Assembly (NCBI GenBank): GCA_902601315.1
Contig: CACKMS010000007.1
Span: forward strand, 1 to 64,000
Reading direction: 5' to 3'
DNA length: 64,000 nt
Source: an uncultured Pelagibacteraceae bacterium
GTDB taxonomy: Bacteria; Pseudomonadota; Alphaproteobacteria; Pelagibacterales; Pelagibacteraceae
Made by a program: the position numbers and the translations under genes. Positions 5,690-32,153 of this stretch are shown one piece after another (within the stretch, counting starts at the first letter, position 1; the number at the start of each line of letters is the position of its first letter). A model generated the notes under the pieces. It saw only the letters and a program-made list of their open reading frames with translations, did not search any database and was not told where the DNA came from.

Positions 5690-5765
5690 TGGCTCCTCGG
5701 GCAGGACTCGAACCTGCGACCAATTGATTAACAGTCAACTGCTCTACCAACTGAGCTACCGAGGA
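5690..5765 (-). tRNA. tRNA-Asn (anticodon GTT)
   Basis: Minus strand TCCTCGG...CTGTTAA loop...CCGAGGAGCCA cloverleaf. Confidence 0.95.
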
Positions 5766-5814
5766 ATAACAAATTGCAACTTACTTTTTTTTTGGTTTAT
5801 CACAATAGTTTTTT

Positions 5815-5888
5815 TGGAGGCAACGCCCGGAATCGAACCGGGATACAAGGATTTGCAATCCTCTGCGTAACCATTCCGCCACGTTGCC
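5815..5888 (-). tRNA. tRNA-Cys (anticodon GCA)
   Basis: Minus strand GGCAACG...TTGCAAA loop...CGTTGCCTCCA cloverleaf. Confidence 0.95.
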
Positions 5889-10357: not shown

Positions 10358-11563
10358 ATGAAAATTAGACCTGTAATTCTTTGTGGAGGAGCAGGGACAA
10401 GACTTTGGCCAAATCAAAAAAATCACCAAGCAAAACAGTTTATTAATTTTGGTAATTGGACTTTATTAGGTAAAACATTAGAAAGAGTTAAAGGCTCAAT
10501 TTTTGATAATCCTGTTATCAGCACAAATGCAAAATACCTTAAACAAATAAAACAGCATTTAAAAAAACATAAAATTAAAAAATATAAAATTGTTTTAGAA
10601 CCAGCTAAAAGAAATACAGCTCCTGCTATTTTAAGCACTGCCTTAATAAAAGATATTCCAGACAATCAACCATTAATGTTCTTTTCATCAGATCATTTAA
10701 TAGAAAAAGTAAATATTTTTAATAATGCTATTTATAAAAATAAATCTAATTTGACTGATCAAAATATATTTATCTTTGGCATAAAACCTAAATCTCCCTC
10801 AAGTGAATATGGCTACTTTCTTACAAAAAAAATTAAGGGAAATATTAATAAAGTAACAAAATTTATTGAAAAACCTAAAGAAGAAAAAGCAAAACAAGTT
10901 ATTAAAAAAAATGGTTGTTGGAACTCTGGTATGTTTTTTCTAAGAAAAGACTCTATAATTAATAACTTTAAAAAATATCAGCTAAAAACATATAAAAACT
11001 GCTTAGATGCAGTTAATAAAGCTAAATATAAATCTAACACTTATTATTTAAATAAATCTTCATTTTTAAAAGCTACAGCTAAATCATTTGATTATGCCAT
11101 TTTAGAAAAAACCAAACAAATAAATGCAATTAAATTAGATATTCCTTGGTCAGATCTTGGAAGCTGGAAAGAAATATTAAAAATGTATGATAAAAATAAA
11201 CGGAAATACATTAAAAAGAAGAATATTTATTATCGACCTTGGGGAAAATACACAAATTTATTTGAAGGTAATGAATTTTTAATCAAAGAATTGTACGTAA
11301 AACCAAAAGGGATTTTGAGTTTACAAAAACATCATCACCGAGCAGAGCATTGGTTGGTAACACAAGGAAATGCTAAAATTACGCTTAATAAAGATATAAT
11401 AATCAAAAAACCTGGTGAACATATATTTATTCCATTAGAAGCAATTCATAGAGTTCAAAATCCAGGCAGGAAACCAGTTAAAATTTTTGAAGCACAAGTT
11501 GGATCAATACTTAAAGAAAGTGATATTGTTAGATATCAGGATGTTTACGGAAGAGTAAAATAA
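10358..11563 (+). CDS. manC: Mannose-1-phosphate guanylyltransferase / mannose-6-phosphate isomerase
   Basis: PVILCGGAGTRLWP pyrophosphorylase motif, C-terminal cupin YVKPKGILSLQKHHHRAEHW. Confidence 0.9.
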   Translation: MKIRPVILCGGAGTRLWPNQKNHQAKQFINFGNWTLLGKTLERVKGSIFDNPVISTNAKYLKQIKQHLKKHKIKKYKIVLEPAKRNTAPAILSTALIKDIPDNQPLMFFSSDHLIEKVNIFNNAIYKNKSNLTDQNIFIFGIKPKSPSSEYGYFLTKKIKGNINKVTKFIEKPKEEKAKQVIKKNGCWNSGMFFLRKDSIINNFKKYQLKTYKNCLDAVNKAKYKSNTYYLNKSSFLKATAKSFDYAILEKTKQINAIKLDIPWSDLGSWKEILKMYDKNKRKYIKKKNIYYRPWGKYTNLFEGNEFLIKELYVKPKGILSLQKHHHRAEHWLVTQGNAKITLNKDIIIKKPGEHIFIPLEAIHRVQNPGRKPVKIFEAQVGSILKESDIVRYQDVYGRVK

Positions 11564-13851: not shown

Positions 13852-14856
13852 ATGAAAATATTAATAGTGACAGATGCTTACTTTCCTCAAGTAAATGGTG
13901 TTGTTAGAACACTTCATGAAACAGGTGAAGTTCTAAAATCTCAAGGTCACACGTTAGAATATATTACTCCTCAACAATTTCTTACTGTGCCTATGCCTAA
14001 ATATAATGAAATTAGATTGTCTATAAATGTTTGGCCCCGTGTTAGTAATTTAATCAACTCTATTAAGCCTGATGCAATACATATTGCAACAGAAGGCCCT
14101 TTAGGTTTTATGGCAAGAAGACATTGTATTAAAAAAGGATTAAAATTTACAACAAGTTTTCATACAAGGTTTGATAAATATATAAAGCTTTATATGCCCA
14201 TAATTCCAGCTAAATGGTCAGAAAAATTTTTGTGTAACTTTCATAATAAAGCTGAAAGAATTTTAATTACAACAGAGTCTATGCGTGAAGAACTCATTGC
14301 ATTAGGTGTTGATAACAGCAAAATGGTTACGTGGACAAGAGGAGGTAATCATGGTGCATTTAAAAATCCCATTAAGAGAGACTTACCTTATAAAAGACCT
14401 ATATGGATTTATGTTGGAAGGGTTGCTGTTGAAAAAAATATTAAAGCATTTTTAGATTTAGATCTTGAAGGTACTAAAATTATAATTGGAAAAGGTCCTA
14501 ACTTGAACATTTTAAAAAAAAAATATCCAAAGGATATTTTTTTAGGCGAAAAAACAAATGGAGAATTAGCATCACATTTTGCATCTTCTGATGTTTTTGT
14601 ATTTCCAAGTAAAACAGACACTTTTGGAATAGTCGTTTTAGAATCTTTAAATTGTGGAACACCAGTTGCAGCTTACCCTGTACCAGGACCCAAAGATATA
14701 TTGGGTGGAACTAAAATTGATACATTAGATGTGGACCTTAAAAACTCAGCACTTAAAGCTTTAAAAATAAATCGAGATGATTGTTTAGAATTTGCTAAAA
14801 AATATAGTTGGGAAGAAACGGCAAAGATATTTTATAACAATATATCACCTAATTAA
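13852..14856 (+). CDS. GT4-family glycosyltransferase (candidate glycolipid synthase, Agt-like)
   Basis: TDAYFPQVNGVVRTLHETG, YVGRVAVEKN, FVFPSKTDTFGIVVLE motifs. Confidence 0.85.
   Translation: MKILIVTDAYFPQVNGVVRTLHETGEVLKSQGHTLEYITPQQFLTVPMPKYNEIRLSINVWPRVSNLINSIKPDAIHIATEGPLGFMARRHCIKKGLKFTTSFHTRFDKYIKLYMPIIPAKWSEKFLCNFHNKAERILITTESMREELIALGVDNSKMVTWTRGGNHGAFKNPIKRDLPYKRPIWIYVGRVAVEKNIKAFLDLDLEGTKIIIGKGPNLNILKKKYPKDIFLGEKTNGELASHFASSDVFVFPSKTDTFGIVVLESLNCGTPVAAYPVPGPKDILGGTKIDTLDVDLKNSALKALKINRDDCLEFAKKYSWEETAKIFYNNISPN
14764..14819 (+). repeat. Left copy of 56-bp exact direct repeat (3' end of glycosyltransferase gene)
   Basis: Identical to 32058-32113 by eye. Confidence 0.93.
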
Positions 14857-15586
14857 TATTTAAAACTATAGATCTAAGTTTATCAACAATTTGTTTATTA
14901 TTTAATTTTTCTTTTTGTAGCGAGGAGATTTTTTCACCAATACTAAGCTTATATGTTCGATTTTTTTTATTTATTAACTCTCTTATAAATAAAATTCTTC
15001 TTAAGTTATTATTTATAAAGCCTACTGTTTGAAAGAATAAGCTATTCTTACCAAAAAAACGTACAGGAATAATTTCCGCCTTGGTTTTATTAATTATAGA
15101 TCCAATTAATGGTTTCCATCTTCTTTCATTAGCCTCATTAAAAATAAAAGAAGATGTAGCAACTTCTCCTGAAGGAAAAGTTATTAAAATTCCATTTGCA
15201 TTTAAGTGTTCAATTGCCTTCTTTTTAGAAATGATATTTTTTTTTATATCCTCTGTAAATTTTGAAAATTTAATTGGCAATAAGTACTCTCTTATTTGAT
15301 CAATTTGTGAAAGTTCTTCGTTAATTAAAATTTTATAATCCTGTCGGATATCACAAATTATTGAACAAATTATAAGTCCATCTAATAATCCAAATGGATG
15401 ATTTGCAACTATTATACTTGATCCTTCTTTAGGTATATTGGCAACATTTTCTGCAATGTAATTAATGTTAAAAATATCTAAAGTTTTTTTCCAAAAATTC
15501 TTTGACTGTTTTAACTCTTCATAATTAACTTTATATATAGATTTGATTTCATCAATTTTTGAAATTTTCTCTAAAATTTGCTGCAT
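14849..15586 (-). CDS. 1-acyl-glycerol-phosphate acyltransferase family protein (OlsA-like)
   Basis: IIVANHPFGLLDGLI (NHX4D-type) and FPSGEVATS acyltransferase motifs; adjacent to OlsB-like. Confidence 0.75.
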   Translation of the reverse strand: MQQILEKISKIDEIKSIYKVNYEELKQSKNFWKKTLDIFNINYIAENVANIPKEGSSIIVANHPFGLLDGLIICSIICDIRQDYKILINEELSQIDQIREYLLPIKFSKFTEDIKKNIISKKKAIEHLNANGILITFPSGEVATSSFIFNEANERRWKPLIGSIINKTKAEIIPVRFFGKNSLFFQTVGFINNNLRRILFIRELINKKNRTYKLSIGEKISSLQKEKLNNKQIVDKLRSIVLNIN

Positions 15587-16574: not shown

Positions 16575-16907
16575 ATGAGTTACAGTAAAATTGAAAAAGC
16601 AACCAAAGAATTTTTTAAATCAAATATTGAACCTTTCAAAGATATAGTTTCTAAGGAAGTACATTGTGAGGCTATACATAAATCAAGTTTTGGCGGTAAC
16701 ATAAAGAACTACGATGAAATGATGGAAATGATAAAAGATGCGATGACTAGTTGGAACACAGAACCAGAAATTAAGTGTTTAATTGATACTCCAGAGGTCG
16801 TAGTTAAAACTGTTAAAGGATTTGATCCTAACTTTACTTATCTTGAAATAGATCAACTTAAAGATGGTAAAATTATTAAACATTTTTATGGCAAAGTTCC
16901 AAAATAG
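16575..16907 (+). CDS. SnoaL/NTF2-like small protein
   Basis: Size and fold-like pattern (FxxxxLEIDQLKDGKIIKHF) of NTF2-like proteins; ATG start. Confidence 0.55.
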   Translation: MSYSKIEKATKEFFKSNIEPFKDIVSKEVHCEAIHKSSFGGNIKNYDEMMEMIKDAMTSWNTEPEIKCLIDTPEVVVKTVKGFDPNFTYLEIDQLKDGKIIKHFYGKVPK

Positions 16908-16912
16908 ATAAA

Positions 16913-17030
16913 TCAAGGTTTAAGGGATTATGGCGGAAGATAATCGGCGTAAACTGTGGACTTTAATAAAGGAAGCTGGCGATTATTTACGGGATTAGAG
17001 GTTCACATTAATCCACATTAAACGGCATTA
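16913..17030 (+). repeat. Element copy 1: micro-ORF plus inverted repeat plus three 10-bp iterons
   Basis: Ungapped alignment to 31903-32020; about 79/95 identical over 16936-17030 by hand count. Confidence 0.85.
16930..16998 (+). CDS. Putative 22-aa micro-ORF MAEDNRRKLWTLIKEAGDYLRD
   Basis: Paralogous micro-ORF of identical length at 31920-31988; differences include synonymous/conservative codons. Confidence 0.4.
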   Translation: MAEDNRRKLWTLIKEAGDYLRD

Positions 17031-17155
17031 TCCCACACGAACAAAATCATCTTTTGATAGACCAAAAAAAATAAACCTTTATTAACAAATTTTTCATTAC
17101 AAATACCGATAATGATAGCAGGTATAATTAAATATTCTTATACAACCGGAATATT

Positions 17156-18295
17156 TTAACTTACTTGGATTCCGTTTGACCAAACGTTTTTCACAACAGG
17201 TAAATTATGATAAACTTTAAACCTTACTAAATCTGCTCTTTTATTGTTATCAATTAAACCCCTATCATTTAAATTTGTAGCTATAGATGGAGCGTGACTA
17301 GCTGCTGCAAATGCTTTTGGAAGATTATCAATTTCTAAACCCCATTTGACAACAGATATAATTAATGATGATGGAATATAATCTGAGCTTAAGATATCTA
17401 AACAATCATTTTCTAAGAGTTCTTTTGCAGATATATTGCCAGAGTGTGAACCTCCTCTAAGTAAATTAGGAGATCCCATCATAACTTTAATATTGTAATC
17501 TTTAGAAGTTTTGGCTGCTTCTAATGTTGTTGGAAATTCAGCCAATTTTACTCCATATTTATTTGAATTATGAACATCATTTTCTGTGGTATCGTCGTGA
17601 CTAGCCAAAATACAATCATATGATGATTTAAATTCTAAAATTTTATCTATGTGTTTCTTGCTATTTTTTTTTGAAAGATTTTTTAAGTGATCAAAATGAA
17701 TTTCCATTTCTTTTTCTGTCATACCGTATTTAATTGAAAGATATTCTTTGTACTTATCTATAACTCTAAATTGCCTCTGACCTGGTGTATGATCCATTAT
17801 ACTAATCAGTTTTACATCGTGAGTTTCATTGTATTCGTCTAATTCATCAATCAAATTCTCCGAACAAGTTTCAGCTCTTAAATGTATTTTGTGATCAATC
17901 TTGAGAATATTATCTTTTTTAAAACTTGAAATTATATCCGAACAGTTTTTTGCATATTTTTTATATTTTCCTGTTTTTTCAATAGAACCAACTCTTAATG
18001 CATCAAAAACTGTAGTTATTCCAACAGATGCTAATTCTCTATCATGAGATAAAATTGCATTTTCTACTGGAAATGAAACTTTAGGTCTTGGTGTCATGTG
18101 TCTTTCAAGATTGTCAGTATGTAATTCAACCAATCCTGGCGAAATATAATCTTTTTCGCAGTCTATAGAACTTTTGTTATTACTTAATCCACTACTTATA
18201 TCGACAATCTTGTTATCTTTAATCCTGATATGACCATGAACGATTTCATCTTTTTTAATTATCATGGCATTGTTTAAAATATATTCATGCATCAC
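17156..18295 (-). CDS. phnM: Alpha-D-ribose 1-methylphosphonate 5-triphosphate diphosphatase PhnM
   Basis: SPGLVELHTDNLERHMTPRP, SIMDHTPGQRQF, LASHDDTT, SSDYIPSSL motifs. Confidence 0.95.
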   Translation of the reverse strand: MMHEYILNNAMIIKKDEIVHGHIRIKDNKIVDISSGLSNNKSSIDCEKDYISPGLVELHTDNLERHMTPRPKVSFPVENAILSHDRELASVGITTVFDALRVGSIEKTGKYKKYAKNCSDIISSFKKDNILKIDHKIHLRAETCSENLIDELDEYNETHDVKLISIMDHTPGQRQFRVIDKYKEYLSIKYGMTEKEMEIHFDHLKNLSKKNSKKHIDKILEFKSSYDCILASHDDTTENDVHNSNKYGVKLAEFPTTLEAAKTSKDYNIKVMMGSPNLLRGGSHSGNISAKELLENDCLDILSSDYIPSSLIISVVKWGLEIDNLPKAFAAASHAPSIATNLNDRGLIDNNKRADLVRFKVYHNLPVVKNVWSNGIQVS

Positions 18296-18314
18296 TTTTT
18301 AATACACATGAATT

Positions 18315-18332
18315 GTTACAAATATTTTAAAT
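18315..18332 (-). promoter_or_regulatory. Pho-box-like site upstream of phnM
   Basis: Minus strand ATTTAAA-ATAT-TTGTAAC. Confidence 0.35.
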
Positions 18333-18367
18333 TAGAGAAAATTTATATAAGTATTATAAGTTGAATT

Positions 18368-19081
18368 ATGAAAAAATATTCTAGATACGCTATTTATTAT
18401 GCACCTCCAAAAGAGAGTAGTCTAGAAGAATTTGGCAGATATTGGTTCGGTTGGGATCCACTTAATGCAAAGTTAATAAATAACAAACATAGAATTAATT
18501 ATCTAAACAGATTTGGAATTAAAAACTTAATAAACATAGATAAAAATGTTTTAATTGCAAAGAAATATGGGTTTCACGGCACACTTATTCCTCCTTTTAA
18601 ACTAAACAAAAATTATAGTACCAATACATTATTTAAAAAAACTGAGGAAATAGCAAAAAAATTCAAAAAATTTAAATTTTATAAATTTAAATTAAAAAAA
18701 ATGAATAATTTTTATGCTTTTGTTCAAAATAAAAAAAATAATAACATTAATAAGTTATCAAATAGACTAGTTAGAGAATTATTTAAATTTAGGTCACCTC
18801 TTACAAAAAAAGAAATTGATAGAAGAAATCCCTCTAAACTAAGTAAATTACAATTAAATATTTTATATAAATGGGGATACCCCTATTTAATGTCAGAATT
18901 TAATTTCCATATGACCCTTGCATCAGAGGTCACAGGAAACAAATTGTACCTTGAGTTAAAAAAAATTGAAAGAAACAAAGAAATCATTTTAAATGAAATA
19001 AATAATTTTGATAAAATATATATATTTGGTGAAAACCAAAAAGGAATGTTTGAGAATTTAGAAAATTTTTCACTTAGCTAA
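18368..19081 (+). CDS. DUF1045 / phosphonate-operon-associated 2H-type phosphoesterase
   Basis: RYAIYYAPPKESSLEEFGRYWFGWDP start; two HxTL motifs (FHGTLIPPF, FHMTLAS). Confidence 0.88.
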   Translation: MKKYSRYAIYYAPPKESSLEEFGRYWFGWDPLNAKLINNKHRINYLNRFGIKNLINIDKNVLIAKKYGFHGTLIPPFKLNKNYSTNTLFKKTEEIAKKFKKFKFYKFKLKKMNNFYAFVQNKKNNNINKLSNRLVRELFKFRSPLTKKEIDRRNPSKLSKLQLNILYKWGYPYLMSEFNFHMTLASEVTGNKLYLELKKIERNKEIILNEINNFDKIYIFGENQKGMFENLENFSLS

Positions 19082-19606
19082 AATTATTTTTTTCAATTTA
19101 TTTGCACCTATAGCTATTGATTTATTATTATTTATAGTAATTATATTTTTCGGTAGTAAATTAATTTTTCTTTTTATCCTTTTATTAATTGATTTTTTGT
19201 CTTCTCTAGCTCGATTTACAAGTCTCTTTTTAATAATTGTTGATGGGGCAAAAATATTAATTATTTTAACGTTATTAACTTTTTTTTTTACTTTAAAAAG
19301 TACTTTTCTTGATCCATTAAAAATTACTGTTTTACCTTCCTCTATTTTTTTTATTTCCTTAAATGGAATACCGTATGAAAAACCATGAGCTTTCCAGTAA
19401 ACAAAGAAATGTTTTTTTAAAATCTTATCTTCAAAATTTTTAATTGATATGCTGTAATGATCTTCATTTTTAATATCTTTTTTCCTAGTAATGTACCTTT
19501 TTACCAAAATGGAATTAGGAATTTTTTTAATTACTTTTTTTAATAAAGTATCTTTTCCTGATCCTGATGGTCCAACGACTACGATAAGCTGACCGTTATT
19601 TTGCAT
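19070..19606 (-). CDS. phnN: Ribose 1,5-bisphosphate phosphokinase PhnN
   Basis: VVVGPSGSGKDTLL P-loop, guanylate-kinase-like; position after phnL. Confidence 0.9.
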   Translation of the reverse strand: MQNNGQLIVVVGPSGSGKDTLLKKVIKKIPNSILVKRYITRKKDIKNEDHYSISIKNFEDKILKKHFFVYWKAHGFSYGIPFKEIKKIEEGKTVIFNGSRKVLFKVKKKVNNVKIINIFAPSTIIKKRLVNRAREDKKSINKRIKRKINLLPKNIITINNNKSIAIGANKLKKIILAK

Positions 19607-20273
19607 CTGATATTTTTGTAATATCTATTTCCCTAGCATTTAAATATTTACGTGAATATTCATCATGAAAAATACCAATTATTGAAGATCCACTATCTTT
19701 TTTTTCATTAATCAAATTCAAAACAATATCTTTGTTAACACTATCTAAACTAGCAGTTGGTTCATCTAGTAATAAACATGGATAATTTCTAATCAGTCCC
19801 CTAGCAACATTAACTCTTTGTTGTTCTCCACCTGAAAAAGTTAGTGGCGATAAATTCCATAAGTTTTTATCTATATTAAGTTTTAGTAAAATTTTTTCAG
19901 CTTTTTCACGAACTTCATCTTGATCTGAATTTATTTCTAATAAGGGCTCCATAACAATTTCAATTGTAGGAACACGAGGTATCACTCTTAGAAATTGACT
20001 AACATATCCTATTATATTTTTTCTAAGTTCAATAATATTTCTCGGATATGTATGATCTATGTTGTGATTATTAATTTTAATTTGTCCTGATTGAAAAACA
20101 TAGTTTCCGTAAATCATTTTTAAAATACTAGACTTTCCAACACCTGATGGTCCTGTTAACGCTACAATTTCTCCAGGATTAATTTTCAAATTCAAATTAT
20201 TAAAAACTAATATGTTTGTTTTGCCCTGATTATGAAGTGTAAATTTTTTTGTAATTTTATTTAGTTCAATCAT
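19596..20273 (-). CDS. phnL: C-P lyase system ABC-type protein PhnL
   Basis: GPSGVGKSS, FSGGEQQRVNVARG, LLLDEPTASLD; order in cluster. Confidence 0.93.
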   Translation of the reverse strand: MIELNKITKKFTLHNQGKTNILVFNNLNLKINPGEIVALTGPSGVGKSSILKMIYGNYVFQSGQIKINNHNIDHTYPRNIIELRKNIIGYVSQFLRVIPRVPTIEIVMEPLLEINSDQDEVREKAEKILLKLNIDKNLWNLSPLTFSGGEQQRVNVARGLIRNYPCLLLDEPTASLDSVNKDIVLNLINEKKDSGSSIIGIFHDEYSRKYLNAREIDITKISDAK

Positions 20274-20275
20274 AT

Positions 20276-21043
20276 TTAAACCTGTAATACTGAACTAACT
20301 AATAACTGAGTATAAGAATGTTGCGGATCATCTAATACCTGATCACAAAGTCCAGACTCAACAGCCTCCCCATTTTTCATAACAATAATTTTATCAGCTA
20401 ACAATCTAATCACTGCTAAATCGTGAGAAACGATTACAACTGATAAATTTAATTCTCTAACTAATTTTCTTAACAAATCTAAAATTTTTGCTTGAACAGA
20501 AACATCAAGACCTCCTGTTGGTTCGTCCATGAAAATTATTTTAGGACTCGTAACCAAATTTTTTGCTATTTGTAATCTTTGCAACATTCCACCAGAAAAT
20601 GTTCTTGGAAAATCATCTACTCTACTTTTATCGATTTCTACTTTATCTAACCATTTAAAAATAGTTTGCCTAATATTTCCATAATTTCTTTGTCCAATCG
20701 ACATTAATCTTTCACTAATATTTCCACCAGCACTTACATCTAATCTTAAACCGTCTCTAGGATTTTGGTGAACAAAAGCTAATTCAGTTCTTATCAATAA
20801 CCTTTTCAATGACTCAGATATTTCTAGAAAATCAATCGTTTCATTACCTGTTTCAATTAAGATTTTTCCACTATCAGGAATAAGATTGCCTGATATGGAA
20901 TTTATAAAAGTTGTTTTTCCTGAGCCAGATTCTCCTACTACACCAACGACTTCCCCAGGATATAATGTCAAATTCATATTTTTGCATCCCACTTGATTAC
21001 CGTAATATTTGTTTAAATTATGAACTGACAAAATTGGTTGCAT
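20276..21043 (-). CDS. phnK: C-P lyase system ABC-type protein PhnK
   Basis: GESGSGKTT, FSGGMLQRLQIAKNL, FMDEPTGGLDVSVQ. Confidence 0.94.
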   Translation of the reverse strand: MQPILSVHNLNKYYGNQVGCKNMNLTLYPGEVVGVVGESGSGKTTFINSISGNLIPDSGKILIETGNETIDFLEISESLKRLLIRTELAFVHQNPRDGLRLDVSAGGNISERLMSIGQRNYGNIRQTIFKWLDKVEIDKSRVDDFPRTFSGGMLQRLQIAKNLVTSPKIIFMDEPTGGLDVSVQAKILDLLRKLVRELNLSVVIVSHDLAVIRLLADKIIVMKNGEAVESGLCDQVLDDPQHSYTQLLVSSVLQV

Positions 21044-21925
21044 TTAATTATTTTCCATTCTTTGATTACAATAATTTGTATCTGAACATATAAATGATCT
21101 ATTACCGTCATCATCAGTAATTATTTCATCTAAAAAACTCTCATTTGATCCACAAATAGAACATTTATGAGGTGCCTTTGAGGGATCAAATGGATAATCC
21201 TCAAAATCAAGACTCGTTACTTCAGTATATGGTGGTATTGCATAAATTCTTTGCTCTCTTCCTGCTCCAAATAATTGAATAGCAGGGTTATTGTTCATTT
21301 TTGGGTTATCAAATTTTGGAATAGGTGATGGGTCCATTATATATCTTTCATTTGTCTTTACTGGATAAGCATATGCTGTTTCTATATGACCATTTTTGGT
21401 AATATCTTCATATAACTTTACATGCATAATTCCATATTCTGATAGTGCATGCATTTTTTTAGTTTCTTGATATCTTGGTTCTAAAAACGCAAGAGGTTCT
21501 GGTATTGGAACTTGATAAACAAGTATTTGTTTTTCTTTTAACTTTTCTTCTGGAATTCTGTGTCTTGTCTGAATTATCGATGCTTGGCTTGTTTTTTCTG
21601 TGGTCTCAATATTAGCAGTTTTTTTAAAGAAATTTCTAATTGAAACTGCGTTTGTAGTATCATCTGCTCCTTGATCAATAACTTTTATCACATCGTCAGT
21701 TGTTAAACATGACGATGTTACTTGAACCCCTCCTGTTCCCCATCCATATGGCATAGGCATTTCTCTAGATGAAAATGGAACTTGATAACCTGGTATGCAA
21801 AGAGCTTTAATCAAAGCTCTTCTTATCATTCTTTTTGTATTTTCGTCTAAATAAGCAAAATTATATATTTCATCTTGAGCTGCAACATCAGTTTTTTTAT
21901 TTTTAAATTTAAGTACGTTGTTCAT
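21044..21925 (-). CDS. phnJ: Alpha-D-ribose 1-methylphosphonate 5-phosphate C-P lyase PhnJ
   Basis: AFLEPRYQETKKMHALSEYG; C-x2-C-x21-C-x5-C cysteine pattern matching the PhnJ Fe-S/catalytic cysteines. Confidence 0.96.
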   Translation of the reverse strand: MNNVLKFKNKKTDVAAQDEIYNFAYLDENTKRMIRRALIKALCIPGYQVPFSSREMPMPYGWGTGGVQVTSSCLTTDDVIKVIDQGADDTTNAVSIRNFFKKTANIETTEKTSQASIIQTRHRIPEEKLKEKQILVYQVPIPEPLAFLEPRYQETKKMHALSEYGIMHVKLYEDITKNGHIETAYAYPVKTNERYIMDPSPIPKFDNPKMNNNPAIQLFGAGREQRIYAIPPYTEVTSLDFEDYPFDPSKAPHKCSICGSNESFLDEIITDDDGNRSFICSDTNYCNQRMENN

Positions 21926-22988
21926 TTTTTTTATACTCTTCTCTAATTTTTCTTACTAAATCCAATTCCGCTTGAAAATCTACATAATGAGGTAATTTGA
22001 TATGTTCTAAAAAACCTGTGGCTTGAATATTATCACAATGAGATATAACAAATTCTTCATCTTGAGCAGCAACACCCAAATACTCCTCACCAAATTCTTT
22101 CCATCTCATTGATCTATCAACTAAAGCCATAGAAATAGCTTTTCTTTCTAATTGACCAAAAACTAAACCATATCCACGGGTAAATTGAGCAGGTATTTTT
22201 TTACTACCTTTAAATTGGTTTACTGACTCACACTCAGTAAACATGACATCAGCAATATTTATTTCTATTCCTAATTCTGGAATTTCAAATTGAACCTCAA
22301 CGTAACCAGTTCTTAATTCACCAACAAATGCATGATTTCTAGCATACCCTCTCTGTGTTGAATAAGCTAAACCAAGAAGAAAACCTTCATCTCCTCTTGA
22401 AAGAGATTGCAATCGTTCAGATCTTGTTAAAGGAAAATTAATTGGGTTTCTTGTAATATCTTTAGATGTCTTGCCACTAGGTATTTCTTTCTGAATTAAT
22501 CCTTCTTTATTTAAAAAGCTTAAAACATGTGGGATTTCTTTATCATCATATTTTTCAATCTTAGCTTTTTCATACTCTCCATCAGCAAGAAGCTTGAAAT
22601 CAAGTAAACGGTGTGTGTAGTCAAATGTTGGGCCTAACTTTTGTTTACCTGGGATATCTTTAAATGTTGCAGATATTCTTCTTAGACATAACATTTTGCC
22701 AGTTTCGATAGGTTTGCTTGAACCAATTCTAGGTAAAGTAGTTCTATAGGCTCTCATTAGAAAAATTGCTTCAATCAAGTCACCTCTAGACTGTTTGATT
22801 GCAAGAGCAGACAAATCTTTGTCATATAAAGATCCTTCTGACATAACTCTATCAACACTTAAAGTTAGTTGTTCACTAATTTGTTTAATATTTAGTTCTG
22901 CTATATTTACATCCCCTCTTCTTATTTCGGATAACCAGGAATGTGCGTTATTTATTGCCTTTTCCCCACCTTTTACTGATACATACAT
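21909..22988 (-). CDS. phnI: C-P lyase complex subunit PhnI
   Basis: MYVSVKGGEKAINNAH start; RGYARNHAFVGELRTGYV. Confidence 0.96.
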   Translation of the reverse strand: MYVSVKGGEKAINNAHSWLSEIRRGDVNIAELNIKQISEQLTLSVDRVMSEGSLYDKDLSALAIKQSRGDLIEAIFLMRAYRTTLPRIGSSKPIETGKMLCLRRISATFKDIPGKQKLGPTFDYTHRLLDFKLLADGEYEKAKIEKYDDKEIPHVLSFLNKEGLIQKEIPSGKTSKDITRNPINFPLTRSERLQSLSRGDEGFLLGLAYSTQRGYARNHAFVGELRTGYVEVQFEIPELGIEINIADVMFTECESVNQFKGSKKIPAQFTRGYGLVFGQLERKAISMALVDRSMRWKEFGEEYLGVAAQDEEFVISHCDNIQATGFLEHIKLPHYVDFQAELDLVRKIREEYKKNEQRT

Positions 22989-22989
22989 T

Positions 22990-23544
22990 TTATAGCTCTC
23001 CTATTTTCAATGATCTTGGTATTGAATAAAATTTATCATTATCAACAAAATAAAAATCAAGTCCTAATGGAAATTGCTGGTTATTTTTTTTTATAACCTC
23101 TCTATCAGGTAAAAATATACTTTTAGAACTTTTAATACCAGGGCCAGAAATTATGGCATTTGGTTTTTCAAATTGGGACTGGCAAATAATTGTACACGAT
23201 TGATCAGGATTTTGCTCGTCCCCCTTTTTAAATTCATCTAATGGTAAAAGATCATCCCAAGTACCAATTGCAAAATTTGCATTTTTTTTATCTGTAATGT
23301 TTGCACCTGTATTAAATTTAATCCAATCAATAGTTTCTTGATTGTTAACTTCACCACCTAAAAAAATATTTGAATAACTATCACAAAAAGTTTTTATTAT
23401 TGAACAACTAGCTGAAAACATATTCGAAGGGGGATCTATATTTTTTAATGTCTCAATTGAACCGGGATATGAGGTTGCAAACAAAATACTTCTAAAATAA
23501 TCAGCACTTACTTGAGAATTATTTTTTTTAGAAACAACTTCCAT
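22990..23544 (-). CDS. phnH: C-P lyase complex subunit PhnH
   Basis: PGSIETL, SGPGIKSS, QFPLGLDFYFVD family pattern; order. Confidence 0.92.
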   Translation of the reverse strand: MEVVSKKNNSQVSADYFRSILFATSYPGSIETLKNIDPPSNMFSASCSIIKTFCDSYSNIFLGGEVNNQETIDWIKFNTGANITDKKNANFAIGTWDDLLPLDEFKKGDEQNPDQSCTIICQSQFEKPNAIISGPGIKSSKSIFLPDREVIKKNNQQFPLGLDFYFVDNDKFYSIPRSLKIGEL

Positions 23545-23547
23545 AGA

Positions 23548-23991
23548 TTATTTATCCTCACCTCTTACCAAGGTAAAAAAATCAACTTTAGTAGCTTCTG
23601 TTTTAGATAATATTTCATTTCTTTTGTTATTTTTATATTTAATTAATTTATCAATTATATTTCTTTTAATTATTTCTTTTTTTTCAGTTTGCATCAATGC
23701 ATCACACAAAGCTGCAATTTTGGATTTATATTTATTTCTACCTTGAACATAACCATGTCCTTGAATTTTTTTATCTAAACTTAATGAACATCTCGTTATA
23801 GTTACTTCTCCAACATTAAAATTATCACCTGTGACGCCTGCTTTTCCTTGAACCATAACACTGCCAATCTCAGGTTCTCTTAACCAATTATATTCTATTT
23901 TCATATTTAAATTGTCCCAAAGCGATATTAGATAATTTTCATCTGCTGTTGCTAAATAACTTAACCATTGTTTTCTTGATTTATTTTTCAT
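23548..23991 (-). CDS. phnG: C-P lyase complex subunit PhnG (ORF track opens at 24003 with TTG; ATG near 23991 preferred)
   Basis: REPEIGSVMVQGKAGVTGDNFNVGEVTITRCSL, GYVQGRNKYKSKIAALCDAL. Confidence 0.92.
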   Translation of the reverse strand: MKNKSRKQWLSYLATADENYLISLWDNLNMKIEYNWLREPEIGSVMVQGKAGVTGDNFNVGEVTITRCSLSLDKKIQGHGYVQGRNKYKSKIAALCDALMQTEKKEIIKRNIIDKLIKYKNNKRNEILSKTEATKVDFFTLVRGEDK

Positions 23992-23993
23992 AA

Positions 23994-24017
23994 TACTATA
24001 CAACTAGACAAGTACTA
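23994..24017. promoter_or_regulatory. Candidate PhnF (GntR/HutC type) operator between phnF and phnG
   Basis: TACTATACAACTAGACAAGTACTA; two TTG(T)(C/A)TAG half-sites on the minus strand. Confidence 0.4.
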
Positions 24018-24057
24018 AAATTAAAAATAATTTCAATATATTATTTATTAAAATTTT

Positions 24058-24768
24058 ATGACAACAAAAGATTTGCTTTGGAAGGAAATATACAATTCAA
24101 TCAAAAGAGAAATTGTTTTAAATAAGTACAAAATTAATAAAAAGTTAGATTCTGAGAATGACTATGCAAAACAATTCAATGTCAATAGACACACTATAAG
24201 AAGAGCTTTTAAAGAACTTAAAGATGATAATTTAATATATTCAAAAAGAGGTCTTGGAGTATTTGTTAAATCATCAAAAATTAATTACTCAATTAGTAAA
24301 AACGTACGATTTACTGAGAATATACTTCAAGAAAACCAATCAGTAAGAATTGAAATAAAAAGTTTTGATATTGCTGAATGCAATCTTTTTGAAAAAAAAG
24401 AACTCAACTTAAAAAAAAATGACAAAGTTACACGCATAAATAGCATAGGTTTTGTCAACAATTCACCTTCTGTAATAACTTTCAGATCGATTCCTTATAA
24501 AAAATTTCCAAAATTTATTAATTATTTTGTTAAAAAACAATCAGTAACCAAAGCTTTTAATTTATTGAATATCAAACTAATTAAAAGATCAAAAACTCTA
24601 ATCAATGCTGAAATTGCAGACAAAATAAAATCAAATTTATTAAATATAAATGAGGGGGAAGCACTATTAAAAACTACATCTGTTAATGTCGATTTTAAAA
24701 ACAATCCTATAGAGTTAAGTGAAAGTTATTTTATTGGATCTAAAATTCAATTTTTAATAAAAAATTAG
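24058..24768 (+). CDS. phnF: GntR-family regulator, PhnF
   Basis: N-terminal wHTH (YAKQFNVNRHTIRRAFKELKDDNLIYSKRGLGVFV) and UTRA-like C-terminal domain; divergent from phnG. Confidence 0.88.
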   Translation: MTTKDLLWKEIYNSIKREIVLNKYKINKKLDSENDYAKQFNVNRHTIRRAFKELKDDNLIYSKRGLGVFVKSSKINYSISKNVRFTENILQENQSVRIEIKSFDIAECNLFEKKELNLKKNDKVTRINSIGFVNNSPSVITFRSIPYKKFPKFINYFVKKQSVTKAFNLLNIKLIKRSKTLINAEIADKIKSNLLNINEGEALLKTTSVNVDFKNNPIELSESYFIGSKIQFLIKN

Positions 24769-24799
24769 ATTTTCTACCTTAGGTTTAAATTTCATATAA

Positions 24800-24850
24800 C
24801 TTAAACAAAATTTAAAAGATTCATTAATAATATTTTAACATTTATTAAAG
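24800..24850 (+). promoter_or_regulatory. Extended Pho-box-like array (5 units, 11-bp period) upstream of phnC
   Basis: CTTAAAC-AAAA-TTTAAAA-GATT-CATTAAT-AATA-TTTTAAC-ATTT-ATTAAAG. Confidence 0.5.
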
Positions 24851-24875
24851 ATTAGAGGGTTAACAAATTCTTCAA

Positions 24876-25700
24876 ATGATTATTGAAAAAGTTAACAAAT
24901 TTTTCGGTGATAATCATGCCGTTAAAAACGTTTCTTTTGAGGTTAACAAACCTCAAATGATAGGAATCATAGGTAGATCTGGGGCTGGTAAATCAACATT
25001 ACTAAGAATTATAAATCGACTTACCGACGCAACAGATGGGTCTATTAAAATTGAAGGTCAAAATATTCTAGATTTAAAAAGTAAGGAAAAGAGATCATGG
25101 CAAAGAAACTGTGCAATGATTTTTCAACAATTTAATTTAGTTCCACGATTAGATGTTCTAACAAATGTAATATTAGGCAGATTAAATTATCAGGGCTCAT
25201 TTAGAGCATCTTTAAAAATGTTTTCTCGAGATGAAAGAGCTGATGCTCTGATTTTACTCAATAACTTAGGTATGGCTAACACTGCCCTTCAAAGAGCTGA
25301 AACGTTATCTGGAGGTCAACAGCAACGTGTAGCTATATGTAGAGCTTTGATGCAAAATCCTAAAATGATTTTAGCAGATGAACCAATTGCATCTTTAGAT
25401 CCAATGAATGCAAGAATGGTAATGGAATCATTAAGAAAAATTCATGACGAAAAAAATTTAACAGTTATTTCAAATCTTCATACACTTGATACAGCAAAAA
25501 CTTATTGTGATCGAATTATTGGAATGAAAGATGGTGAAATAGTCTTTGATGATTTGCCTGAAAAATTATCACATAAACTTGCAAGAGAAATTTATGGTGC
25601 AGAGGCTGATGAAGCTTTTGAGCCACAAGTAACATCTACAGAGCTTAAAACAAAAAATAAATTAAATGGAGATGTTGAGAAAGAATTTGCAACTGCATGA
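24876..25700 (+). CDS. phnC: Phosphonate ABC transporter ATP-binding protein PhnC
   Basis: [35 protein letters not shown]. Confidence 0.95.
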
Positions 25701-25760
25701 GATCAATAACTCATCGTTACAAATAAGTCGTTAGACTAAAATTATAAAAAGGAGATAATT

Positions 25761-26711
25761 ATGTTTAATAAACTAACAAGAGTTATTGCACTTTTGGCTA
25801 TGGTGTTTTTTTCAACTCAAGCTAATGCAGTAACTTACACAGGTCCAAAAATGGACTTAAGTAAATACCAACCAGAATTTAGAGTTGGTTTTTTAGGTGA
25901 CGAAGCAGCTCAAGATATTATAGCTAGAAATGAATGTTTCATGCCGTATATCGAAGCCGCTTATGGTGTACCAGCTAAATTTTTTACTTTTAAAGACTAC
26001 GCTGGAACAATGGAGTCGATGCTAGGTGGTAATCTAGATTACACTTGGTTCGGTTCTTCAGGATATGCGGGTATGTATTTAAAAGATCCAACTGCAGTAG
26101 TACCAGTACTAACAAGAATGCAGCCAACTGGTGATATGGGTTACTACTCTGTTGCAGTAGCAACTAAATCATCTGGAATTAAATCAATGGAAGACCTTAA
26201 AGGTAAATCCTTTGGTTGGGCTGACCCTAACTCTACATCAGGTTTTTTAATTCCGTCAATTGAATTAAAGGCTATGGGTATGGATCCAGATACATATTTT
26301 TCAAAAACACAGTTTTCTGGAGGACATGAAAACAATGTATTAGCGGTAATGAATGGTGATGTTGATGCTGGTGTAACATGGGTATCTGGTGTTGGTAGCT
26401 GGGAAGAAGGATATTCGTCAGGGAATTTAAGAAAAATGGTTGATAAAGGGATTTTAAATATGGACGACATTGTTCAAATTTGGTCTTCAAAATTAATTCC
26501 TAATGGTCCAATTGTGATGCCTACTTTTTTACCTGTTAGAGCACACCAAGTAATGATTGGTTTAAAGCAATGGATACACGAGAACGATCCAAAATGTAGC
26601 GAAAACGTTGCAAACGGGATTGTAAAAAAATGGGTTCCGGTGGATCATTCTTTTTACGAGTCAGTTGTAGCTGCAAGAAAAGCTAAAATTGAAGCGCAAA
26701 AAAATAATTAA
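25761..26711 (+). CDS. phnD: Phosphonate ABC transporter substrate-binding protein PhnD
   Basis: Signal peptide; TFKDYAGTMESMLGGNLDYTWFGSSGYAGMY; synteny. Confidence 0.95.
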   Translation: MFNKLTRVIALLAMVFFSTQANAVTYTGPKMDLSKYQPEFRVGFLGDEAAQDIIARNECFMPYIEAAYGVPAKFFTFKDYAGTMESMLGGNLDYTWFGSSGYAGMYLKDPTAVVPVLTRMQPTGDMGYYSVAVATKSSGIKSMEDLKGKSFGWADPNSTSGFLIPSIELKAMGMDPDTYFSKTQFSGGHENNVLAVMNGDVDAGVTWVSGVGSWEEGYSSGNLRKMVDKGILNMDDIVQIWSSKLIPNGPIVMPTFLPVRAHQVMIGLKQWIHENDPKCSENVANGIVKKWVPVDHSFYESVVAARKAKIEAQKNN

Positions 26712-26728
26712 TTAAACCCCCTATAATT

Positions 26729-26757
26729 AGAGGCAAAGACTGTAAATCTTTGCCTCT
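26729..26757 (+). terminator. Hairpin between phnD and phnE (processing/attenuation hairpin; weak T-tract)
   Basis: AGAGGCAAAGA-CTGTAAA-TCTTTGCCTCT, 11-bp perfect stem. Confidence 0.7.
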
Positions 26758-26775
26758 GATTTATTTTTAAAAATT

Positions 26776-27630
26776 ATGGCAAAAGCCTTACCTGCCAACC
26801 TAGAACAAATTGAAGTTAATTTAAAAAAATTAACAAACCAGAGAACTAGGTCCTCGCTACTTGGAATTGCAATTCTAATATTAATTTTTTTTGGTGGTAC
26901 CTTGGTATCGTTAGAAGCAAATGCAGGGTCTTTTGGAAGAGGTATAGCTAATTTTTTTAACTACCCTAGAGATTTATTTGTAGACACTTTTGAGATGGGA
27001 TGGAAATATTGGCCAAGAGTTATTAAGTATATTCCTGAATTAATTATTACTTTAAATATTGCTTTATTTTCAACTTCTATAGGTTTTATTTTAGCAATTA
27101 TATTTGCAATTTTTTCAAGTAGGAACCTAATTAGAAACAAAAGAGTTATTCAATTTACAAAATTTTTAATGGATGTGACAAGATCATTTCCAACATTAAT
27201 AATAGCAATGGTGTTTTTATATCTAATGGGTAAATCATCTTTACCAGCTGTAATTGCTATAACAATACATACTGCTGGAGCACTTGGTAAATTATTTACA
27301 GAGGCTATAGAAAATTGTGATGGAAAACCTATTGAAGGTTTAAGTTCTGTTGGTGCAACTTGGACACAGAAGATAAGATTTTCAGTTCTTCCCCAGGTAC
27401 TACCTTTGTTTTTAAGTTATGGAATATTGAGGTTAGAAATTAATGTTAGAGAATCTACAATATTAGGTTTTGTTGGTGCAGGTGGAATTGGAGAAATGTT
27501 AGCGGCTCTAATTCAGTGGAATTATGGAGCTGATGTTTTAGCGTGTATGCTCTTACTGGTTGGTACGATAATTGCATTAGATTATTTGTCTGCATATTGG
27601 AGACATAAATTAATTGGAGCAAATCAATGA
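26776..27630 (+). CDS. phnE: Phosphonate ABC transporter permease PhnE (1)
   Basis: PhnE permease pattern GALGKLFTEAIENCDGKPIEGLSSVGA. Confidence 0.95.
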   Translation: MAKALPANLEQIEVNLKKLTNQRTRSSLLGIAILILIFFGGTLVSLEANAGSFGRGIANFFNYPRDLFVDTFEMGWKYWPRVIKYIPELIITLNIALFSTSIGFILAIIFAIFSSRNLIRNKRVIQFTKFLMDVTRSFPTLIIAMVFLYLMGKSSLPAVIAITIHTAGALGKLFTEAIENCDGKPIEGLSSVGATWTQKIRFSVLPQVLPLFLSYGILRLEINVRESTILGFVGAGGIGEMLAALIQWNYGADVLACMLLLVGTIIALDYLSAYWRHKLIGANQ

Positions 27631-29027
27631 GTTCTAGTTTAGCTATTCAAAGAGAAAATATTCGTAAATTATTTCCTGACACATTTAAACAAGCCAGAAA
27701 GAGTAGATTAAGAGGCCAAATAATTTTTTTTCTCGTCTTAGTATATTTAATAGTAGGTTTTTTTACTTTAGATGTTGTTGATATCCCAAAAAAATGGAAA
27801 CCACAAAATGCTGCTATGTTTGTCTTAGACACATATGCACACAAAGATCATGTAACAATGAAATGGGAAAATCATGAGGATATTAAAATAGCTTTTGAAG
27901 GAAATTATAGAAGTGTTTATGGAAGAGATAATCTTGATAAATCAATTCCAGATTGGTTTTACAAAAATTCTGATAATGTTGGCAATGTAGTTGAGTTTAA
28001 TAATAAAGGTAAGGCAATATTATACAAAGATAAAGTCGAGATTGTAAATTTTCCAAAATATGAGAGAGATTTTACCATAAAATTAAATTCTAATGGTAAA
28101 CCTTACCTTGTAGGTTCAGAGGATTTGGTCATAGAAGATTTAAAAGGTTTTAGAATCACAGAAAATAGAGTTGAATTTAGACCCACTTTGTATGAGAGAA
28201 TTCAAGTATATCCAAAAAAAGTTGAAATTCATCGTTACAGTATCGGATGGAAATATTTTTGGTTTGATTTCTCAAGTCCTTTAGAACCATATAGCTTTTT
28301 CGAAGCATTAGGTTTGACTTTTTCTAAAGAAAGAGTTGTTCCTGAAATGTCTAATTTAAAACTTTTCTTAACAGAGATTAAGGATAATGAAGCATTTATG
28401 CACGGTAGAGTTTGGTGGGCAATGCTCGAAACAATAGTTATGGCTGTACTTGGGACAATGTTTGCTACAGTAATGGCTCTGCCCTTGTCATTCCTTGCTG
28501 CATACAACGTTACACCTATTAAAGCTCTAAGATTTACGTTAAGAAGATTATTTGATACTTTAAGAGGAATAGACTTTTTAATTTGGAGTTTAATATTTTT
28601 AAGAGCTTTTGGTCCAGGACCCTTCACTGGTATTTTTGCGATTGGTTTTACTGATACAGGTACTTTAGGTAAATTATATTCTGAAGCAATTGAAAATACT
28701 GAGAAGAAACAACAAGAAGGAGTTCAATCTACAGGGGCTAGCAAATTTCTACAACATAGATTTGGTATAATTCCTCAAATACTTCCAATTTTTGTATCTC
28801 AATCCTTATACTATTTAGAGTCAAATACTAGAGGAGCCGTAATAATAGGTGCAATGGGCGCAGGAGGAATTGGTTTACAATTTTTAGGTGCACTAGGTAC
28901 TGGAAATGATTTTGAAAATGTCGCCTACATGGCAATATTAGTTTTGGCTGTAGTAATATTTATGGATAGATTATCTGCTTGGCTTAGAAGAATATTAATT
29001 GGATCAGATCAATTAATTGTAAGGTAA
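27627..29027 (+). CDS. phnE: Phosphonate ABC transporter permease PhnE (2)
   Basis: GTLGKLYSEAIENTEKKQQEGVQSTGA; tandem with first phnE. Confidence 0.95.
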   Translation: MSSSLAIQRENIRKLFPDTFKQARKSRLRGQIIFFLVLVYLIVGFFTLDVVDIPKKWKPQNAAMFVLDTYAHKDHVTMKWENHEDIKIAFEGNYRSVYGRDNLDKSIPDWFYKNSDNVGNVVEFNNKGKAILYKDKVEIVNFPKYERDFTIKLNSNGKPYLVGSEDLVIEDLKGFRITENRVEFRPTLYERIQVYPKKVEIHRYSIGWKYFWFDFSSPLEPYSFFEALGLTFSKERVVPEMSNLKLFLTEIKDNEAFMHGRVWWAMLETIVMAVLGTMFATVMALPLSFLAAYNVTPIKALRFTLRRLFDTLRGIDFLIWSLIFLRAFGPGPFTGIFAIGFTDTGTLGKLYSEAIENTEKKQQEGVQSTGASKFLQHRFGIIPQILPIFVSQSLYYLESNTRGAVIIGAMGAGGIGLQFLGALGTGNDFENVAYMAILVLAVVIFMDRLSAWLRRILIGSDQLIVR

Positions 29028-29094
29028 ATAGAAAAAATACCTTTATCAAAAATTTTTCTAGAAATTTTAATTTAAGAATTTAAAAAGATAAAAA

Positions 29095-29523
29095 TCAATC
29101 TTTCCAGAATTTCCACCAAGGTTTTTCTTCCTTTGTTATCTCATTATTGTCAACAACAACTTTAGTTATAGATGGATCCTCTCCATCTACTAATCCTGCT
29201 CTAGCAGTTGTTTTAGCGTCTTCTAATTTTAGTTTTGCCTCAAAAACTCTGTTTTCATTACACAATTTCATGCCCTCTTTCATTAATGCTTCTGCCTCAG
29301 ATGCTTTTTCGGGACTAGATCTTGAAATATCATTTTTAACAGTGGCTCTTAACATAAGTACTCCAGGGTCTTCACAATTCCCTATTTCATTTTTAAATGT
29401 ATCCTCAGTATTTTGTGAATAACTACTGCCGGCTTGTTGCTCTGTTATTTTAGCATGATTGTCAGCTTGAGTAATAGAAATTGTGGATAAAGTTAATATA
29501 AATGAGATTAGGATTTTATTCAT
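29095..29523 (-). CDS. Secreted protein of unknown function (C-terminal KPWWKFWKD)
   Basis: ORF with signal peptide; Pho-box-like array directly upstream. Confidence 0.7.
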   Translation of the reverse strand: MNKILISFILTLSTISITQADNHAKITEQQAGSSYSQNTEDTFKNEIGNCEDPGVLMLRATVKNDISRSSPEKASEAEALMKEGMKLCNENRVFEAKLKLEDAKTTARAGLVDGEDPSITKVVVDNNEITKEEKPWWKFWKD

Positions 29524-29534
29524 AATAATCTATT

Positions 29535-29563
29535 AACTTACTTTTGTTAAAAAAATGTTAAAG
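29535..29563 (-). promoter_or_regulatory. Pho-box-like array upstream of the secreted unknown
   Basis: Minus strand CTTTAAC-ATTT-TTTTAAC-AAAA-GTAAGTT. Confidence 0.6.
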
Positions 29564-29577
29564 AAATAAAAAAATTT

Positions 29578-30750: not shown

Positions 30751-31294
30751 AACTGCTTTCCACATGTTTATAAAAAAAATTTATATTTGGAATTTCTAAA
30801 TTTTCAACTTTAGCAAGATCATCATATTTCCTTAGTCTAACTGCATCTTGCATAAAAGGTTGTTTAATAAATTCGTTTGCCTCTTCTTCAGAAAAACTAC
30901 CACCTTGAACATCCAAACTTCTTTTTGAGGCAATAGATAGAGCCTCATAATATCCTTTCTCATAATAAACTAAATATCTTTTAGCTGGCACATGCCCTTT
31001 AATTAGTCTTGTAACATCTTCTGGAAAAAATTTAGAAAGAAAAAAGGATCCTGAATTCTCATGCTTTTTATCTACTCCTTTTTTGATGGCTTCTTTATCA
31101 TTATTAATTAAGTGACCAATATCATGGAATAGAGCTGCAGTTATAAAAAAATTGTTTTCATTATTTTTTTTTGCCAATAATGCACATTGAATTGCATGTT
31201 CTAGTTGTGAAACTTTTTCATTTCCATATTGTTTGTCTGATCCAATTTCTTCTATAATTTTAAATAAATTGGTTATATTTGATTTAATATCCAC
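30743..31294 (-). CDS. PhnZ-like HD-domain mixed-valent diiron oxygenase (phosphonate-degradation HDIG family)
   Basis: QLEHAIQCA, AALFHDIGH, IKGHVPAKRYLVY, QGGSFSEEEANEF, AVRLRKYDDLAK pattern of PhnZ/TIGR03276-type proteins. Confidence 0.85.
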   Translation of the reverse strand: MDIKSNITNLFKIIEEIGSDKQYGNEKVSQLEHAIQCALLAKKNNENNFFITAALFHDIGHLINNDKEAIKKGVDKKHENSGSFFLSKFFPEDVTRLIKGHVPAKRYLVYYEKGYYEALSIASKRSLDVQGGSFSEEEANEFIKQPFMQDAVRLRKYDDLAKVENLEIPNINFFYKHVESSFK

Positions 31295-31316
31295 AATGTT
31301 ATTTTAAATTAAGAAT

Positions 31317-31334
31317 GTTTCAGTTTTGTTACAA
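31317..31334 (-). promoter_or_regulatory. Pho-box-like site upstream of the phnZ-like gene
   Basis: Minus strand TTGTAAC-AAAA-CTGAAAC. Confidence 0.5.
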
Positions 31335-31391
31335 TTTAGATTTAGCATTCATTAAGTATAGAAAAATAATATATAGTAATAAAAGTTAAAA

Positions 31392-31841: not shown

Positions 31842-31902
31842 CTTAAAGACTCATCAATTTTACTGTCAAACTAGAACCACAACTAGAACTTTTGGAGATG
31901 TT

Positions 31903-32020: not shown

Positions 32021-32057
32021 AACTAAAGTATTTATGCGGATACTAAAAAGTTAGCTT

Positions 32058-32153
32058 AAAATAAATCGAGATGATTGTTTAGAATTTGCTAAAAAATATA
32101 GTTGGGAAGAAACAGCAAAAATTTTCTTTAAAAATATTTCACCTAATAACTAA
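32058..32153 (+). pseudogene. 3' stub of glycosyltransferase gene (KINRDDCLEFAKKYSWEETAKIFFKNISPNN*)
   Basis: First 56 bp identical to 14764-14819; the rest is homologous but diverged; no start codon, upstream in-frame stop. Confidence 0.9.

Follow-up and report, generated by a model that had tools for sequence, protein, structure and literature searches.

The repeated element analyzed here, which occurs twice in the window (a 64,000-nucleotide stretch of DNA from an uncultured Pelagibacteraceae bacterium), is very probably one half of an integration site in the 5' end of a SAR11 gene encoding a protein of 75 amino acids. The sequence evidence for this reading comprises the identity of the gene, the polarity of its truncated copies, matching arm words, empty and occupied sites, an attP next to an integrase gene, apparently circular contigs, and, in genome G523, the joining of the phosphonate block of the window to such a site. 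In the mechanism that we propose, the first 20 codons of the 75-aa gene would hold an approximately 40-bp core (CAGGAAGCTGGCGATTATTTG in the strict sense), and the attP of the integrative elements would carry this core as well, along with a start codon and N-terminal codons of its own and arm repeats that flank it. We infer that these sites are acted on by a tyrosine integrase, which would recombine attP with the 75-aa gene; the new 5' end brought by the incoming element would make the host gene whole again, and the original 5' end would stay at the far end of the element, fused to its right side, as a "22-aa ORF plus 10-bp iterons." Repeated insertion would generate tandem arrays in one direction. 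Autonomous members would be circles of about 9 kb with an integrase and a primase-helicase, most chromosomal copies being non-autonomous, cargo-bearing derivatives that are presumably mobilized in trans, and in the window two such sites would flank a phosphonate (C-P lyase) block.

Truncated copies in the window and their parent gene

The ORF, inverted repeat, 10-bp units, and second copy in the same orientation on which the original prediction was built are all present in the window. The 22-codon ORF of copy 1 starts at 16930 and has its stop codon at 16996-16998 on the plus strand; the motifs ATAATCG and CGATTAT are located at 16940-16946 and 16980-16986, and the 10-bp units at 17004 (CACATTA), 17014 (CACATTA), and 17024 (GGCATTA). 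Copy 2 (31896-32020) is on the same strand and 77% identical to copy 1 across 125 nt, the pair being the longest direct repeat in the window. A blastn search with copy 1 as query returned copy 2 with E = 1e-22 and located two more on a different contig of this genome; the copies are therefore not a product of chance. A separate repeat in the window, at 49688-49771, is a 42-nt sequence perfectly duplicated in tandem; it encodes a stretch rich in histidine and aspartate, of the kind found in metal-binding loops.

The source of the ORF is identified by a full 75-aa ORF, MNKENTSKLWKIIQEAGDYLVGQLPDHPNHPKGRNPYAHV..., in the same genome, on the minus strand of contig C1 (locus L006, 4508-4735), with a truncated copy 795 bp upstream of it; the 22-aa ORF of the window thus consists of the first 20 codons of this gene, to which two foreign codons and a stop have been added. 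This conserved gene occurs in 98 of the 247 family genomes sampled and in 157 of 247 in the order Pelagibacterales. Its product belongs to no Pfam, PHROGs, or NCBIfam family, giving just weak sub-threshold scores, and searches of cultured phages produced no convincing match to the core and no match to the 75-aa gene or the integrase. About 40 bp at the 5' end of this gene is read from these comparisons as the attachment site of integrative elements. In copy 1 the truncated 5' end of 22 codons (16930-16998, plus strand) has an element-type N-terminus, MAEDNRRKLWTLIKEAGDYL, and the putative attachment core, AAACTGTGG...GATTATTTA, lies at 16951-16989 on the same strand (strict core 16969-16989). 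On its left is the anchor AGATAAATCAAGG (16906-16918, plus strand), which the NTF2-like gene abuts and where the 11-12-bp arm-word pair is absent; in genomes G523 and G121 this NTF2 gene (97-98% identity up to 16916) instead leads into the start of an element, with the sequence ATAGATAAATCAAATAGCC or one closely similar to it. On its right, iterons with a lag-10 periodicity occupy 17004-17036 (plus strand), and the rest of the right arm (TTATGCGGAT onward, with its arm words) has been lost.

Copy 2, also on the plus strand throughout, retains a left arm of two words at 12-bp spacing, ACTAGAACC and ACTAGAACT (31870-31893), followed by the anchor GGAGATG and a leader up to the start codon (31894-31919), the truncated 5' end of the attachment-site gene, MNEDNRRKLWKIIQEAGDYLRD and a stop (31920-31988), with a core that is the same as the consensus (31941-31979), and the right side of a second, deleted element, consisting of 10-bp iterons and TTATGCGGATACTAAAAAGTTAGCTTAAAATAAATCG (31994-32069). 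The element is joined there, at AAATAAATCG, to a scar (32058-32152, plus strand), a 95-nt duplicate, 91% identical, of the 3' end of a glycosyltransferase-like gene (13852-14856); its source is 14764-14858, the last 95 nt of that gene, and the join after copy 2 has a 10-bp microhomology. The two microhomology junctions of the window copies are AAATAAATCG at 32060 and AGATAAATC at 16906. In other genomes the glycosyltransferase-like gene immediately precedes the histidine-kinase-like ORF found here at 32188-33336. The only tRNA genes in the window are at 470-546 and 5690-5888.

Comparison of many copies separates the features that belong to the element from those that do not. The residues that follow GDYL differ (RD, GC, GG, GS, or VG before the stop, or no nearby stop in several truncated copies), and the micropeptide was rejected as a candidate on account of these variable C-terminal residues and stops. 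That the ORF encodes a small regulatory peptide of 22 aa, as had been proposed, is accordingly an extremely improbable explanation; the coding-like pattern of substitution in the 5' codons would favor it, but that pattern is accounted for by the 75-aa gene, of which the ORF is the displaced first 20 codons and which the element must keep working. Among 34 distinct element-borne 5' ends, differences at the three codon positions are in the ratio 1318:693:2661, with no stops and the frame kept, as is expected if an element must restore a working gene. The inverted repeat is incidental, since ATAATCG is missing from all but 2 of the 72 full and 3 of the 33 truncated copies. The unusually GC-rich codons, attributed in the original prediction to constraint at the level of DNA or RNA, to foreign origin, or to a micropeptide, derive from the start of the host gene, which also serves as the putative attachment core. 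It had also been allowed that the copies might turn out to be the conserved tail of an ordinary gene; they are instead the conserved head of one, so that this reservation is half borne out, and they do lie at the borders of variable regions. A structured RNA or regulatory DNA serving the phn genes, for example a PhoB-box array, might be suggested by the position of the 10-bp iterons next to phnM, but there is hardly any probability left for it: the same iterons are found beside restriction-modification genes and other cargo and within attP, and a small RNA was rejected because the element matches no Rfam covariance model and its 3 predicted pairs contain no compensatory changes.

Hotspot sites, integrase, and cargo

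The surroundings of the full 75-aa gene were scanned at 72 SAR11 loci, mostly from fragmentary assemblies. Truncated copies or arm repeats occupy the region upstream of the full gene at 35 of these, which is not an unbiased rate because the loci were partly chosen for carrying the gene or a copy. All 26 truncated copies at the 72 loci are upstream of the full gene and on its strand, with none inverted and none downstream; weak core-like matches in L089 (12378), L096, and L103 (6669), which have no element structure, were excluded. A complete element begins with the old 5' end of the gene, including the core, a stop, three or four 10-bp iterons (CACACTA, CACATTA, CACCTTGG, or CAGTCTAG) and usually TTATGCGGAT; this is followed by a right arm (R-arm) of two 11-12-bp words, then (T)GAGATAAATCAA, the cargo, and often TATAGGATA or TGTGGGATA, and the element is completed by a left arm (L-arm) with the same word pair, GAGATAAAACAA, and a new start codon with N-terminal codons, leading into the core and the remainder of the gene. 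In the right-side 40-mers of 31 distinct copies, 71.6% of positions match themselves at a lag of 10, as compared with at most 37% at other lags from 4 to 16.

The arm words vary among elements (ACTCGATTTA, ACTTGAAACA, ACTATACC, ACTAGATAC, ACTATGCCA, and others), and random 75-mers from the same loci contain an arm-like pair in 1.5% of cases. Comparison of the R-arm word of a truncated copy with the L-arm word in the copy that follows it gives agreement at 6.38 of the 7 variable letters, versus 3.75 after shuffling (26 pairs). Not one of 20,000 shuffles reached this agreement, and the result is unchanged with 23 non-redundant pairs, although it should be noted that the shuffles ignore the kinship of the genomes, an effect that the non-redundant set lowers only in part. 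The one pair of arm words without agreement is in L040. The minimal element, in L090, is 227 bp long, and its R-arm and L-arm words are one single pair. Insertion can be followed by comparing empty and occupied sites: positions 1-538 and 481-1107 of the L110 query, where the gene has its native upstream region, as it does in L107, align to 10713-11250 and 13870-14496 of L087, revealing a 58-bp duplication around the core and an insert of 2.68 kb, and the comparisons of L107 with L087, L130 with L104, and L144 with L090 agree with this pattern of insertion and core duplication.

A candidate for the enzyme was found in viral sequences. The strict core, searched for exactly in 2.9 million viral contigs, has a single match, in the 9070-bp contig L051, where the core with both arm pairs (attP) is immediately upstream of an ORF for a 581-aa integrase. 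The same arrangement, an attP and two arm pairs directly upstream of an integrase of 570-581 aa, is present in L146, whose integrase is 63% identical to that of L051 over the aligned sequence, and in L149/L239, a contig from the SAR11 genome G335, whose integrase is 82% identical to that of L146. The core common to attP and attB is identical over 39 bp in L051; for L146 and L149 it is its 3' half that is shared. The second arm pair of L051 lies within the first part of the integrase gene, and this accounts for the remnant frame of the IAIFKANRLM type that follows the R-arm in many cargo units. The L051 integrase matches general phage integrase models, phrog_1 with E = 8e-23 and PF00589 with E = 8.5e-6, the latter at 26.1 bits, 1 bit below the curated cut-off of 27.1, and has the residues of a tyrosine-recombinase integrase; Arg382, Lys409, Arg506, His530, and Tyr540 are invariant in four sequences, and Lys503 is kept in the L051/L053 pair. 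A profile search of the PDB gave just a marginal match, to integrase 3nkh (E = 0.09), and the AlphaFold2 model is poor (pLDDT 50).

Repeats at the termini, with ORFs that continue across the join, mark contigs L051 (29 bp), L146 (81 bp), and L147 (123 bp) as probable circles of 9041, 8922, and 7849 bp. In addition, L239, an 8864-bp contig in a SAR11 assembly, has no chromosomal flank and is colinear with the L146 circle save for a gap of about 140 bp at its ends. The terminal repeats of the three contigs and the structure of L239 are consistent with an excised circular form. Pfam and PHROGs searches with the 10 ORFs of L051 identified the integrase, an AEP primase/DUF5906 protein (primase-helicase), and a RusA-like resolvase, and recognized no capsid, terminase, or other structural gene; L051 thus combines replication genes of its own with no recognized structural genes, as in a satellite. 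Other integrases, about 30% identical to that of L051, are encoded in L053 (15113-16768), L147 (4504-6141), L150, and L151. The gene order of the elements in L053 and L147 resembles that of L051, and there is no core of the 75-aa-gene site near the integrases of L053/L148, L147, L150, and L151; these are probably sister elements that use other attachment sites. A 21.8-kb IMG/VR contig (L085/L240) combines a complete 75-aa gene and its arm words with another integrase (31% identity) and an inverted primase gene located elsewhere on it, and possibly represents two elements that flank the host gene.

Integrase genes are rare in genomes of the family (4 of 347 and 3 of 397), whereas the sites are common, which indicates that most chromosomal units are non-autonomous; most chromosomal inserts, at 0.2-5 kb, have no integrase and bring genes for restriction-modification or for secreted proteins. 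The 27 units characterized range from 227 to 5182 bp, and their cargo includes a type I restriction-modification system (L092), a type IIG restriction-methylation protein (L099), N6- and C5-methyltransferases (L086 and L088), a Z1-domain ATPase (L091), a UvrD-like helicase (L102), a sugar dehydrogenase, a DHDPS-like enzyme, and an HMGL-like enzyme. Many cargo proteins begin with MKKLLG, in the manner of a signal peptide. In L039, L040, L099, L100, L102, and others, the first ORF, starting MKKLLG(I/V), is located shortly past the R-arm; the start regions of these ORFs are much alike and the remainder differs, as if genes had been fused behind a shared leader.

An explanation that dispenses with a dedicated integrase is that the copies are gene fragments that travelled with islands and were duplicated through recombination, either homologous or illegitimate. 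The genome of the window has no integrase, and its two copies are off the hotspot and have microhomology junctions, as this explanation would predict, but the strict polarity, the constant position of the breakpoint at the core, the matching arm words at both ends of the inserts, and the attP adjoining an integrase on apparently circular contigs all argue against it. It is very unlikely overall and is already refuted for the hotspot.

The phosphonate block in the window and in other genomes

The phn (C-P lyase) block of the window, the proposed cargo, extends from 17071 to 31841, from a phnM-like ORF (17156-18295) through an arsC-like ORF (31392-31841), the gene names being taken from the original prediction and from reading of the sequence. 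Matches to the block in genomes G120, G484, G054, G470, and G131 begin at about 17071 and end at 31838. In G120, G484, G131, and others the block is at another locus and has no sites; it is therefore not always cargo. The locus occupied in the window is without an island in G131, where 16474 is joined to 32213 within 36 bp. Elsewhere in the window, 45632-45961 has about 70% DNA similarity to the arsC-like ORF, on the opposite strand, and the neighborhood at 44.9-47.3 kb is similar to the locus that holds the phn block in other SAR11 genomes.

A link between the block and the hotspot is provided by G523, in which the order is YajQ, an ABC transporter, the phn block (95.6% identical to that of the window), the arm words ACTATGCCACAG/ACTATGCCAG, a start codon, the core, the full 75-aa gene, and an aldolase. 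The block is thus seen beside the correct end of an element, in line with the suggestion in the original prediction that a recombination or integration site, or a non-autonomous element, brackets it. No truncated copy was found at the left end of the G523 block; a lone arm-like word at that end, AAACTCGAAACAAAAGTGA (L213, 4350-4386), is perhaps a remnant of an R-arm.

In the window itself, copy 1 has neither arm-word pair and no full 75-aa gene follows copy 2, and for these reasons the pair alone would not prove an element. For the window only, it may be proposed that the phn block was never the cargo of one element and that it ended up between two unrelated site remnants by accident as the locus was reshuffled. 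The missing arm words of copy 1, the right side of a different element after copy 2, the spacing of 15 kb as compared with 0.2-5.2 kb in 27 other elements, and the copies of the block without sites in other genomes are in keeping with such an origin, but copy 1 ends 35-40 bp outside the left limit of the block, the L-arm of copy 2 starts about 30 bp past the arsC-like stop, and at the hotspot in G523 the end of the block adjoins arm words, followed by the core and the full gene. Chance flanking is considered unlikely on this balance. The preferred reading is that the window copies are an ectopic, decayed version of the site, without R-arm repeats or a full gene: most likely the block was carried as hotspot cargo, as in G523, and the window copy was later relocated to, or reassembled at, another locus, where it decayed. 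We read the window locus as a stretch of hotspot DNA that would have been transferred here before decay.

Relation to known systems and implications for SAR11

From its sequence features the element is classed as a tyrosine-recombinase integrative element, which would appear to combine a gene-restoring, site-specific integration like that of SXT at prfC with a layout like that of integron arrays. Integrative and conjugative elements of the SXT/R391 type use a tyrosine recombinase to integrate into the 5' end of prfC and supply it with a new promoter and N-terminus. They share with the SAR11 elements the type of recombinase, a protein-coding attB at the 5' end of a gene, and survival of the target gene, but the SAR11 elements have a different target, take the form of putative circles of about 9 kb or of cargo units of 0.2-15 kb with no conjugation genes seen, and include non-autonomous units in tandem arrays. 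The tandem arrays in one direction, the small cargo units, the use of one site, and the absence of an integrase from most units are reminiscent of integron cassettes. However, the SAR11 units have no folded attC (the 3 predicted pairs have a folding energy of −1.9 kcal/mol) but a double-stranded core with arm repeats, and each has its own arm pair and gene-restoring 5' end.

Tycheposons of Prochlorococcus and Methylophilaceae are tyrosine-recombinase islands at tRNA genes that carry nutrient genes (PMC10872708); they resemble the SAR11 elements as cargo islands of streamlined marine bacteria, but the SAR11 attachment site is in a protein gene, that of the 75-aa protein, and the units are much smaller. 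The SAR11 system is therefore not an integron by the attC criterion and not a tycheposon by the tRNA criterion. The PICI and PICMI phage satellites are small elements with an integrase and a primase (PMC10803314) and, like the SAR11 circles, have no recognized structural genes and occur in viral contig collections; their gene order and att site differ, and the SAR11 circles are candidate satellites. The hypervariable regions HVR1-4 of SAR11 genomes were found to have no attC with any HVR, and their mechanism was left open (PMC2217521); the variable islands described here are comparable, at a hotspot defined by YajQ, the 75-aa gene, and the aldolase. The view that the element is undescribed agrees with the open-access literature, in which no description of the system was found, subscription journals being largely outside this coverage.

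SAR11 are the most abundant bacteria of the ocean. We suggest, tentatively and at somewhat less than even likelihood, that they may have an integron-like cassette economy without an integron, in which satellite-like circles of about 9 kb would move cargo in trans into one small gene and the 11-12-bp arm words would act as address labels against cross-excision. If so, the cargo of this economy would include restriction-modification systems, secreted proteins, and even a C-P lyase cluster of 15 kb. Short "22-aa ORFs" of this kind should be regarded by annotators as scars rather than genes. The C-P lyase genes, which are of interest for phosphate scavenging and marine methane, are tied to a mobile-element site in one SAR11 genome, and the gain and loss of genes in SAR11, a poorly understood process, can now be approached through a specific site, a candidate enzyme, and an accompanying test.
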